From NCBI RefSeq assembly GCF_025685605.1, contig NZ_JAGTUT010000001.1:620001-684000 (forward strand): DNA of 64,000 nt. The letters are read 5' to 3'. Each line of letters opens with the position of its first letter. Position 1 is the stretch's first letter. Below the pieces are notes generated by a model, which saw nothing but the letters and a program-made list of their open reading frames with translations, did not search any database and was not told the origin of the DNA. Shown here piece by piece: positions 36,534-39,496 of this stretch. This DNA is from Granulicella arctica. GTDB lineage: Bacteria > Acidobacteriota > Terriglobia > Terriglobales > Acidobacteriaceae. The translations under genes were made by a program, and so were the position numbers.

Positions 36534-36712
36534 TGCAGACCTTCTTTCTACTTGGTTTAAAGAAACAGGCGAGTGGTATCCGCCGCACCTTGTGAGAGCA
36601 GGTTGGAAGGTATTTACGTTGCTCTGTGCTGAAAAATAGACCCTAGATTGTGGTGATGAAACGAAAAAGCCCACATCCATCTGGACGTGAGCTTCGTGAG
36701 TACACGGTTACG

Positions 36713-37000
36713 TTAGCAGCAGCCGCCAGCGATTGAGGGGATGAGCATGACCTCGTCGCCGTCCTGAAAGGCGTAGGTTTCGCCGCCAAGGAAGCGGATG
36801 TCCTCATCGTTGACGTAGATGTTGATGAAGCGACGGAGCTTGCCGCCTTCGTCTTTGATCTGCGTGCTCAGTGCGGGGAAGGTCTGGTCGATGTCGGCGA
36901 TGAGGCCGGGCAGGTTGGTCGCGGCTGAGTCGAACTGCTTCTGACCATCGGTGTGGCGAACGAATGCGGTGGGAAGGACAACTTTGATCTTAATAGGCAA
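36713..37000 (-). CDS. MoaD/ThiS-family sulfur-carrier protein ending in GGCC
   Basis: This 95-residue ubiquitin-fold protein has IKIKVVLPTAFVRHTDGQ at the start, a central FINIYVNDEDIRFLGG strand, and a DGDEVMLIPSIAGG tail as in MoaD, ThiS and CysO. Sulfur carriers work through a C-terminal Gly-Gly that becomes a thiocarboxylate. Here two further residues, Cys-Cys, follow the Gly pair, so the tail would need trimming, as in carriers processed by a JAMM-type metalloprotease. Its start overlaps the PLP-enzyme gene by 11 bases on the same strand. It therefore probably supplies sulfur to that enzyme rather than to molybdopterin or thiazole synthesis. Confidence 0.88.
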   Translation of the reverse strand: MPIKIKVVLPTAFVRHTDGQKQFDSAATNLPGLIADIDQTFPALSTQIKDEGGKLRRFINIYVNDEDIRFLGGETYAFQDGDEVMLIPSIAGGCC

Positions 37001-38279
37001 GTGAGGCTCCTGCGGTGGCTAGTTCTGGTTCGGTGGAGGCATCGAGTTCCCGAAGGTATTCGTCGAAGTCGGCGATGCGTGGGCGGACGGCGCGCTCCTC
37101 GCGGTACTGGCCGCTGATGGCGTCGGTGGTTTTGAGGCCGTTGCCGGTGATGCAGACGACAGTGATGTCGTCGGGCGAGATGCGGCCGTGGGCATAGAGG
37201 CGTGCGGTGACGGCAGTGGTGACGCCGCCAGCGGTTTCGGTGAAGATGCCTTCGGTCTCGGCGAGCTCCTGCATGCCGGAGACGATCTCGATGTCGGAGA
37301 CGTCCTCTGCCCAGCCGCCGGTGGAGAGGATCATCTTGGCTGCGGCGGGACCGTCAGCCGGATTGCCGATGGCGAGGGAGCGGGCGATGGTGTTAGGGCG
37401 CTGCGGTTCGATATAGTCCAGACCCTGCTTGACCGCTTGTGAGATGGGCGAGCAGCCGGTGGCCTGCGCTCCGAAGAAGCGGACGGGCTTGTCTTCGACG
37501 AGGCCGAGGTAGATGAGCTCGTTGAAGGCTTTGCGAATCTTGCGGATGAGCGAACCGCCCGCCATGGGGCAGACGACGTTGTCGGGGAGACGCCAGCCGA
37601 GCTGTTCGGCGATCTCGTAGCCGACCGTCTTTGAACCCTCGGCGTAGTAGGGGCGGAGGTTGACGTTGACGAAGCCCCAGGCATATTCGTCGGCGATCTG
37701 GGTGCAGAGGCGGTTGACGTGATCGTAGTTGCCGTCGATACGGACGAGGCGGGCTCCGTAGACCTGGGTGTTGAGGATCTTTGCGGGCTCGAGATCGGCG
37801 GGGACGAGGATGGTGGCCTTGAGGCCGAGGCGTGCGGCCTGGGCGGCGACAGAGTTGGCGAGGTTGCCGGTCGAGGAGCAGCCGACGATATCGAAGCCGA
37901 ACTTCTGCGCGTTGGCGAGGGCGACGGAAACGACACGGTCCTTGAAGCTGAGCGTCGGGAAGCAGACGGCGTCATTCTTGACGTAGAGGTTGGTGGCGCC
38001 GATGCGCTTACCGAGATTTTTCGCGCGGATGAGCGGGGTGAAGCCTACCGGCAGGTCAGGCTGAAAGCCCTCGGGGATGGGCAGGAGCGCGGCATAGCGC
38101 CAGATGTTGAAGGGGCCGGCCTGGATGGCCTGGCGAGTAAAGGTTCCGCGCGCGGCTTCGAGGTCATAGACGATCTCAAGTGGGGCAAGGCAGTCAGGGC
38201 AGCCCGAGAGAGGACGATTGCCAAAGCGGCGGCCACACTCGTTGCACTTCAGTTCATACGCCGAACAGGAATATTCCAT
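36990..38279 (-). CDS. Threonine-synthase-like PLP enzyme with zinc ribbon
   Basis: This 429-residue fold-type II PLP enzyme begins with a zinc ribbon (LKCNECGRRFG, then LSGCPDCLAPLE). The PLP lysine lies in PTLSFKDRVV near residue 115, and the phosphate-binding loop is CSSTGNLANSVAA near 140. This fits threonine synthase of the bacterial and plant type, acting on O-phosphohomoserine. Genomic context points elsewhere: it is preceded by a SAM-I riboswitch and overlaps a sulfur-carrier gene. It could instead be a homocysteine-forming or cysteine-forming sulfhydrylase that uses a protein thiocarboxylate. The sequence alone does not separate these two roles. Confidence 0.85.
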   Translation of the reverse strand: MEYSCSAYELKCNECGRRFGNRPLSGCPDCLAPLEIVYDLEAARGTFTRQAIQAGPFNIWRYAALLPIPEGFQPDLPVGFTPLIRAKNLGKRIGATNLYVKNDAVCFPTLSFKDRVVSVALANAQKFGFDIVGCSSTGNLANSVAAQAARLGLKATILVPADLEPAKILNTQVYGARLVRIDGNYDHVNRLCTQIADEYAWGFVNVNLRPYYAEGSKTVGYEIAEQLGWRLPDNVVCPMAGGSLIRKIRKAFNELIYLGLVEDKPVRFFGAQATGCSPISQAVKQGLDYIEPQRPNTIARSLAIGNPADGPAAAKMILSTGGWAEDVSDIEIVSGMQELAETEGIFTETAGGVTTAVTARLYAHGRISPDDITVVCITGNGLKTTDAISGQYREERAVRPRIADFDEYLRELDASTEPELATAGASLAY

Positions 38280-38354
38280 TGCTTCGTCTCCGGTGAGAGA
38301 AGGATATGGCTACTCTGGCGCTGCTCTTTTCTGGGGATTGCAAACAGGAAGGTG

Positions 38355-38385
38355 AAAAACGGATGCAGTTCAGGTAAAGGACTGC
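38355..38385 (-). terminator. Possible riboswitch expression platform (terminator hairpin)
   Basis: On the - strand, GCAGT (38385-38381) pairs with ACTGC (38369-38365) around an 11-base loop, and a run of five T (38359-38355) follows a few bases later. The stem is short. It lies just after the SAM aptamer and about 75 bases before the start codon, so it could be the switched terminator. Confidence 0.4.
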
Positions 38386-38392
38386 GTGCTCC

Positions 38393-38500
38393 GAATCTCA
38401 TGTTCCCTGTTCCCAGGAGAGAGTTGACACCGGTACGCATGTTCTGTCCGGTTGTCGTGGCGTCAAAGGGCTCGTCCCTCAACCACTCTGCATGAAATTC
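38393..38500 (-). promoter_or_regulatory. SAM-I (S-box) riboswitch aptamer
   Basis: The - strand carries the S-box core: AGAGTGGTTGAGGGACGAG, then GCCACGACAACC, and GGTGTCAACTCTC, close to the SAM-I consensus. The P1 stem is 10 bp (38500-38491 with 38402-38393, one G-U). P2 has GTGG/CCAC with a GA-containing kink turn. P3 is ACCGG/CCGGT. P4 is CCTG-GGAA-CAGG. The aptamer ends 113 bases before the PLP-enzyme start. Binding of S-adenosylmethionine should lower expression of the downstream pair, placing them in sulfur or methionine metabolism. Confidence 0.88.
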
Positions 38501-38576: not shown

Positions 38577-39496
38577 TTAGCGTGGAGTCCACTGCGGATG
38601 GCTGGTGAAGAGGCCGCCGAGAAAACCTAACTGATAGACAAGAAAGGAGCCAAAGCAAATGCTGACCATGCCCGAAGCGAGGCCGAAATAATGGCTGAGC
38701 CGGGTGTACCGGTCTCCGGCGTAGGTGAGCGGCACGGCGATGGCGGCGGTCATGCACATCATCCCAAGCAGGGTACCGAAGCCGAAGATGAGGAGGTAGA
38801 TCGTGGCCCAGACGGGATCGTGGATGGTGGAGAGGACGAGGAGCGCGACGGCGGCCGATCCTGCGAGGCCGTGGACGAGGCCGATGACGAGGGCCTGAGA
38901 CCCTGGTAGAGGCTGAAGCGGCTTGTGGTGCTTGCGGGATTGAGGATGCTGGCGCCGGAGAAGCGGGTGGTGAACTTCTGCATGACGCCGGTGAGGTTGA
39001 GGATGCCGAGGAGGATCAGCATGATGGCTACGCTGAACTCCATCGAGAGGCCGAGGCGCGGGGGGATCTCGATGCCGAAGAGAATGATGAGTGAGCCAAC
39101 GATGAAGATGGTGATGGTGTGGCCGAGACCCCAGATGGCGCCAATCATGGCGGCGTTGCGGATGCTGCGCTGATTGCTGACGATGGTCGAGATGGCGACT
39201 ACGTGGTCGGCATCGGTGGAGTGGCGCATGCCGAGAAGCAGGCCCAACCCGGCGACGAAGAGCAGCGGGCCGAGCTTCTCCTTTGAGAAAGGATGCAGGT
39301 TGATGTGCGTGGCCGCGAAGGGATGGGCGGTCAGGAGTATGCCGATGAGGACGGTGATGACGGAGAGTACGGGATACCAGAGTTGTCCCGGTCTTCCGAA
39401 GGGCTGCAGTTCATGAACGCTGCCGGTGCTGTGAATGTGGCTGCCTCGTGCGGCGAGTTTGCGGCGGAAAAGAAGGTAGGAGCCGAGGCAGATCAT
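38577..39496 (-). pseudogene. High-affinity nickel/cobalt transporter (NicO-like) gene with one-base frameshift
   Basis: The first frame (39496 down to about 38894) encodes GLGLLLGMRHSTDADHVVAI, GAIWGLGHTITIFIVG and FSVAIMLILLGILNLTG, typical of NicO/HoxN-like transporters, and reaches LYQGLRP. The other frame continues LVIGLVHGLAGSAAVALLVL, and its last 61 residues lie at 38762-38577. Adding one C to the CCC run at 38891-38893 (- strand) would restore the expected LYQGLRPLVIGLVHG join, so a single base is missing. This is either a recent mutation, a slippage site or a sequencing error. The ATG at 39496 is the only in-frame start after a stop, and about 40 residues before it also look protein-like. 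Metal transport is inferred from family. Confidence 0.75.

Follow-up and report, generated by a model that had tools for sequence, protein, structure and literature searches.

Homocysteine synthesis with protein-bound sulfur has been described in more than one form. The HcyS/MetY system of Wolinella succinogenes is reportedly a protein-thiocarboxylate route that employs a MetY-fold enzyme and an acyl-homoserine; in the MetM/MetO route the thiocarboxylate of MetO is said to be the sulfur donor, and the pathway reportedly occurs in other bacteria and in archaea. In the available portions of PMC12172450, Streptomyces MetM is described, following Hasebe et al. 2024 (Appl Environ Microbiol 90:e01247-24), as a homocysteine synthase that converts O-phosphohomoserine, metO is the sulfur-carrier-type gene of Streptomyces albulus, and a S-adenosylmethionine (SAM) riboswitch lies upstream of metM in that species. 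CysO/CysM also uses a phospho-amino acid together with a carrier (PMC12910592, in the part available), and operons of ThiS/MoaD, E1, JAB and cysteine synthase genes are known, including in an acidobacterium (PMC1779556, in the part available). Here we describe a pair of overlapping genes behind a SAM-I riboswitch in a 64,000-nucleotide stretch of the Granulicella arctica genome (the window; coordinates are positions in it unless a locus handle is given). Comparison of sequences and gene contents makes it highly probable that the pair is a metM-metO operon under the control of the switch, producing homocysteine from O-phosphohomoserine and carrier sulfur. As the MetM/MetO route has already been described, the pair is a further case of it and not a new pathway. 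Within the literature searched for the pair, MetM/MetO was found described only in PMC12172450; the phrase threonine synthase was not found in PMC1779556, the portions of PMC11323500 available held nothing on this gene pair, and a term search of PMC1949818 gave no matches.

The locus resembles S. albulus metM/metO, known here from its partial description, in combining a ThrC-like enzyme, a sulfur-carrier gene and an upstream SAM riboswitch, and differs from it in belonging to another phylum and in having metX and metY elsewhere in the same genome. Orthology to MetM was judged through a Nonomuraea homologue used in place of the S. albulus sequence; it is 53.8% identical to the window enzyme and falls inside the 112-row group described below. 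The Wolinella system likewise uses protein-bound sulfur for homocysteine; it was set aside for the window pair because the enzyme belongs to PF00291, unlike MetY (PF01053).

Architecture of the locus and the proposed route

The minus strand carries, in order, the SAM-I aptamer, a gene for a 429-residue pyridoxal phosphate (PLP) enzyme and a gene for a 95-residue ThiS/MoaD-type carrier. An earlier note on this DNA had claimed a complete S-box aptamer, a threonine-synthase-like PLP enzyme and an 11-base overlap of its gene with that of a ubiquitin-like carrier, and each of these claims was borne out when the window was scanned with the Rfam covariance model and its proteins were compared with Pfam, NCBIfam and solved structures. 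The aptamer (38395-38498, minus strand) matches RF00162 with 69.7 bits against a gathering threshold of 44.4 (E 3.3e-14), covers the full model (positions 1-108) and is the sole match found in the 5.85-Mb genome. The enzyme gene (36990-38279, minus strand), which starts 115 bases downstream of the aptamer, encodes a ThrC homologue with four N-terminal cysteines that matches Pfam PALP (PF00291, E 1.5e-66) and the NCBIfam thrC model TIGR00260 (273 bits, cut-off 167); we regard it as a MetM-type enzyme and a probable O-phosphohomoserine-dependent homocysteine synthase. The carrier gene (36713-37000, minus strand), of MetO/CysO type, has a TTG start codon lying within the enzyme gene, and the overlap, counted with this TTG, spans 36990-37000. 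Its product matches Pfam ThiS (E 2.7e-11), and its best solved relatives are 3dwg (Mycobacterium tuberculosis CysO, E 1.7e-20) and 4n6e (a ThiS/MoaD family protein, E 3.1e-16). The final codons, GGC GGC TGC TGC TAA, specify Gly-Gly-Cys-Cys: the glycine codons (36722-36727, minus strand) encode the expected thiocarboxylate end, both glycines being invariant in an alignment of 11 carriers, and the cysteine codons (36716-36721, minus strand) encode a tail expected to be cut off before activation. Downstream of the carrier gene, a terminator-like hairpin (36666-36695, minus strand) with a 13-pair stem and a T-rich tail, detected as two overlapping sites against 0.1 expected in shuffled sequences, probably marks the end of a two-gene operon.

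In the proposed route, a JAMM protease would trim MetO to its Gly-Gly end, and a MoeZ-type E1 that carries a rhodanese domain would adenylate the trimmed carrier and convert it to the thiocarboxylate. MetM would bind O-phosphohomoserine, which homoserine kinase provides for threonine synthesis, and form a PLP vinylglycine-type intermediate, upon which carrier sulfur would replace phosphate to give homocysteine after release from the carrier. The earlier note had expected a trimming protease to be encoded elsewhere in the genome, and a JAMM gene is present at a second locus (L214, 3256-6155, on C1, outside the window), where a CysM-like gene, the JAMM protease gene and a carrier-ThiF-rhodanese fusion stand in a row with a homoserine dehydrogenase gene nearby. 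This is a CysO-type cysteine locus, and its products can supply both the trimming protease and the activating MoeZ-type enzyme.

Co-occurrence within and beyond the Acidobacteriota

We searched 119 evenly drawn Acidobacteriota genomes, each at least 90% complete. The protein search gave some match in 108 of them and set apart a clade of 32 genomes scoring at least 322 bits, the next match reaching 240 bits; because the enzyme gene of one clade genome (G099) is cut by a contig end, the intact clade proteins number 31. All counts of co-occurring genes and SAM-I sites are among the matches listed, and Fisher values treat genomes as independent though they are related. MetY (TIGR01326 over its cut-off) occurs in 37 of the 119 genomes, MetA in 7 and a MetX-like protein in 32. 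MetX was counted at 215 bits or more, as none of the 119 genomes and none of 14 control genomes passes the 500-bit cut-off of NCBIfam; seven non-clade genomes have matches of 149-175 bits, and one clade genome (G091) has matches of up to 139 bits, all of which fall short of this bar. One or more of the three enzymes were present in 3 of the 32 clade genomes (G000, G069 and G111) as compared to 40 of the 87 others (p = 1.9e-4). In five other members of the genus (G033, G044, G055, G083 and G091), all with an intact enzyme gene, neither MetX nor MetY reached the bars used; three genomes of the same family (G007, G065 and G107) have both of these enzymes but not the gene pair. At these bars MetX, MetA and MetY are all missing from 29 of the 32 clade genomes, which favours O-phosphohomoserine as the substrate over the acyl-homoserine that the earlier note had also allowed. 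The pair is a candidate for supplying homocysteine in genomes devoid of the three enzymes; the part of PMC5764234 available names organisms lacking a known homocysteine route and mentions a protein thiocarboxylate pathway. The literature searched held no description of this inverse distribution in the phylum, and Hasebe et al. 2024 may contain one.

The partners expected of a carrier-dependent route follow the same genomes. Carriers of the CysO/MetO type scoring 80 bits or more were found in 32 of 32 clade genomes versus 23 of 87 others, and a JAMM protein of at least 60 bits in 29 of 32 versus 26 of 87; CysM-type loci carried by the same genomes account for part of both associations. The earlier note had suggested looking for co-occurrence with a JAMM protease and for loss of metB, metC, metY and metZ; the former was found, and the absence of MetY, together with that of MetX and MetA, applies to the clade with the own genome as one of three exceptions.

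Riboswitch placement gives a parallel picture. In a filtered search, in which weak sites may be lost, SAM-I sites over the cut-off numbered 58 in 45 of the 119 genomes. Eighteen lie no more than 2.4 kb upstream of a clade enzyme gene, one in each of 18 clade genomes, and no clade genome showed a SAM-I site elsewhere in this search. The other 40 precede metY (10), other PF01053 genes (10), metX-like genes (3) or genes that were left unassigned (17), so that in this phylum SAM-I precedes alternative enzymes of the homocysteine step. At two loci (L075 and L078) the site lies 2.3-2.4 kb upstream of metM, with an intervening open reading frame (ORF) that in L075 begins, by eye, like a MoeB/ThiF E1 and in L078 is 372 residues long; JAMM was not seen in these two genomes.

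A scan of named genomes yielded at least 589 confirmed relatives, of which the best 80 (L132-L211) come from Nitrospirota, Nitrospinota, Planctomycetota, Omnitrophota, Methylomirabilota, Verrucomicrobiota, Armatimonadota, Chloroflexota, Cyanobacteriota and other phyla. To these we applied a SAM-I model built from 16 SAM-I sequences, with which Rfam agreed at 13 of 13 loci (7 with and 6 without a site). It placed a site in 34 of the best 80 (33 of them scoring at least 60 bits), and every one lies upstream and on the enzyme strand. The Nonomuraea locus (L212) shows the same order of a SAM-I aptamer (68.7 bits), the enzyme and a carrier of 91 residues; the latter stops at Gly-Gly, whereas the window carrier has its Cys-Cys tail. 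Taken together, these comparisons support, as the best reading, the suggestion of the earlier note that a ThrC-like catalyst makes homocysteine with a protein thiocarboxylate.

Evidence against the assignment and alternative activities

Several observations in this section weigh against the metM-metO assignment. The own genome has adjacent metX and metY genes (L093, 3773-6186, on C1, outside the window). The earlier note had held that a complete conventional pathway with its own riboswitches would speak against its proposal; the genes are present, and no riboswitch was found at the L093 locus. As a side reading, metX-metY, which was not found in the five genus members with an intact enzyme gene, may be a second route that is either redundant or newly acquired. 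Enzymes of PF01053 occur in 119 of 119 genomes, and their kinds (MetB, MetC, MetZ or gamma-lyase) were sorted for one own-genome member only, which lies beside a CysK/CBS-like gene (L094) and is nearest to cystathionine gamma-lyase models at scores under their cut-offs. A cystathionine route fed by O-phosphohomoserine exists in plants, and the search leaves room for a PF01053-based route of this type in the clade genomes. Finally, a Microcystis homologue is described as having threonine synthase and deaminase activity, no clear homocysteine production and no SAM riboswitch (PMC12172450, in the portions available), which calls for caution over part of the enzyme family.

The position of the carrier genes is a further difficulty. 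The carrier lies directly downstream of the enzyme in 16 of 32 clade loci, that of G099 included; at L087 a divergent carrier gene is 2.5 kb downstream, and the remaining 15 loci have none. The L101 locus (G022) is a 3.8-kb contig. In several genomes whose locus lacks a carrier (such as G013 and G027) the best carrier match falls in a frame of about 500 residues, probably an E1 fusion. Loci without a carrier would be expected if the enzyme made homocysteine from free sulfide, with the carrier as an accessory or the servant of another enzyme. We consider this improbable, as a carrier of this type occurs in every clade genome, as given above, and is encoded at the enzyme locus in 75 of the best 80 relatives.

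A second possibility is that the enzyme is an ordinary threonine synthase, controlled by SAM because of the precursors shared within the aspartate family, and that the carrier serves another pathway. For Bacillota, regulation of thrC by T-boxes and of hom1 by SAM riboswitches has been reported, among other cases (PMC12452182, in the part available). The TIGR00260 score lies over its cut-off, and some relatives adjoin genes for homoserine dehydrogenase, aspartate kinase or homoserine kinase, a context that would also suit threonine synthase. The predicted model of the window enzyme (mean predicted local distance difference test score 88.5) has the threonine synthases 2c2b and 2zsj as its best structural matches, a likeness of predicted fold that does not separate ThrC from homocysteine synthase activity. 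The enzyme thus resembles bacterial ThrC in its fold, in the zinc-ribbon-like N terminus of some members and probably in using O-phosphohomoserine, and differs from it in its substrate-loop motif and genomic partners. The loop motif of ThrC (NPxRxEG, of the NPYRLEG type) is taken to define threonine synthase activity, and it is absent from the window enzyme, whose loop reads NLRPYYAEG. All 31 intact clade proteins of the phylum share N-x-N-L-R-x-[YF]-Y, as well as four cysteines (C12, C15, C27 and C30 in window-enzyme numbering). We extended the motif comparison to 117 rows, comprising these 31 proteins, Nonomuraea, the 80 named relatives and 5 ThrC rows. The pattern [NS]x[NS][LIVMF]Rx[YF]YxEG was matched by 104 rows; the 13 that fail it comprise all 5 ThrC rows plus 8 clade rows with DG for EG, one of which also has T for the second N. 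The loop arginine and tyrosine are present in 112 of 112 clade rows and in 0 of 5 ThrC rows; in the clade the NPYRLEG-type loop is replaced by one of the type NxN[LI]Rx[YF]Y. A FastTree phylogeny, limited by midpoint rooting and long branches, splits the 112 clade rows from the 5 ThrC rows with a support of 100; in it the Nonomuraea row joins rows from cyanobacteria, armatimonads and chloroflexi (support 88), and the nearest named relatives of the window protein are Acidobacteriota (L167 and L205), in keeping with the placing by the earlier note. The own genome, moreover, has a thrC adjoining thrB (L095) and, at L096, a second ThrC-like gene; it could therefore make threonine without the window enzyme, and O-phosphohomoserine should be available. 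At least 27 of the 32 clade genomes have a further homologue of 125 bits or more among the matches listed. These features, together with the inverse distribution with MetX, MetY and MetA and the association with SAM-I and carriers across phyla, make a plain threonine synthase very improbable. They also suggest that many proteins labelled threonine synthase may be methionine enzymes, which could be re-annotated using the loop motif together with riboswitch and carrier context.

Ten enzyme rows (L081 and L083-L091) form a distinct subclade without an adjacent carrier, apart from the distant one of L087. Some of them adjoin homoserine dehydrogenase or homoserine kinase genes, and their activity may differ.

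That the pair is instead a cysteine synthase acting on O-phosphoserine in the manner of CysM/CysO is extremely unlikely: CysO is indeed the closest solved relative of the carrier, and the M. tuberculosis CysO/CysM/Mec+ system shares with the window pair the carrier family and, probably, the use of a phospho-amino acid with it, but M. tuberculosis CysM is a cysteine synthase on O-phosphoserine, the window enzyme is ThrC-like and not CysM-like, the CysM-like gene of this genome belongs to the separate CysM-JAMM-CysO/MoeZ locus (L214), and the switch is of a SAM-sensing family.

Carrier tails, switch mechanism and neighbouring genes

The earlier note had drawn attention to the GGCC tail, which is read directly in the codons. 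The further idea of Gly-Gly-Cys-Cys as a conserved functional tail was dropped, as the two cysteines vary: carriers of relatives have GGAI, GGSF, GGCI, GGTI, GGRC... at this place, or stop at Gly-Gly. We compared tails with JAMM content at 61 carrier loci, 16 from the phylum and 45 from further genomes, using JAMM bars of 60 bits in the former and 50 bits in the latter; among the 49 further genomes searched, 45 have a JAMM protein of at least 50 bits. Tailed carriers occur with a JAMM protein in 40 of 40 genomes and untailed ones in 15 of 21 (p = 0.001, with genomes treated as independent and kinship ignored), and at the looser Pfam cut-off for JAMM (25) the figures are 40 of 40 and 18 of 21. 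Of the six untailed loci counted as JAMM-less, three (those of G025, L152 and L162) belong to genomes with weak matches of 31-32 bits, G025 reaching 32 bits. In the clade genomes without a JAMM protein of at least 60 bits (G018, G025 and G113), the adjacent carriers stop exactly at Gly-Gly.

In six of the best 80 relatives, from several phyla, the carrier extends about 53-82 residues past Gly-Gly. All four extended carriers tested against Pfam contain a NIL domain and are thus MetO-type carrier-NIL fusions (L140, 6275-6787; L149, 6288-6800; L168, 3041-3472, which reaches the contig end; L191, 6248-6766); those of L141 and L148 resemble them by eye. Since Gly-Gly is internal in these fusions, cleavage would be needed for them to function as sulfur carriers. 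NIL domains occur in methionine transporters. They are also found in another homocysteine route (PMC5764234, in the part available), and our guess is that the NIL part senses methionine. One could imagine that the tail of a pro-MetO blocks Gly-Gly, that the shared JAMM protease gates methionine synthesis and that a NIL tail senses methionine and controls its own removal, which for the NIL part would concern Omnitrophota, Thermodesulfobacteriota, Myxococcota and others and would amount to protein-level feedback beside the riboswitch; we hold this scheme to be speculative and rather unlikely. Tailed and NIL-fused carriers nevertheless pose the testable question of how carrier processing is controlled. 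We found no description of them in the literature searched, and Hasebe et al. 2024 may hold one.

How the switch acts in the window is a matter of prediction. A possible expression platform (38345-38410, minus strand) is predicted to fold into a 66-nucleotide hairpin (-21.5 kcal/mol, z -3.65) in which the 3' strands of the aptamer, CAGGGAACAUGAGA, can pair with UUUUUCACCUUCCUG, a pairing that would exclude P1. A rival shorter hairpin in the leader (-8.4 kcal/mol by fold prediction) is followed by UUUUU. Three results speak against an expression platform here, namely that a consensus terminator scan did not list the shorter hairpin, that the whole 219-nucleotide leader has an unremarkable fold (z -1.57) and that L003-L007 showed no hairpin of this sort. 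We searched for terminators past the aptamer in 24 leaders, that of the window and those of 23 relatives. A clear terminator follows the aptamer in nine (L014, L017, L030, L134, L140, L142, L148, L167 and L205) and perhaps in L009; hairpins are weak or doubtful in the window, L008, L010 and L028, and none was found in L003-L007, L020, L021, L156, L181 and L212. The nine clear cases speak for transcription control in those leaders. The window switch is most likely OFF at high SAM.

Upstream of the operon, adjacent ORFs of 245 and 61 residues (38577-39496, minus strand) may represent one frameshifted gene for a NicO/HupE-type nickel transporter: the longer has a weak NicO match (23.9 bits, under the cut-off), and the shorter has none. 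In an Aliarcobacter plasmid record (L213), a threonine-synthase gene, a cysteine synthase, an M67 (JAMM) peptidase and a MoaD/ThiS carrier lie in one stretch that includes transposases, with an encapsulin and its cysteine desulfurase cargo nearby.

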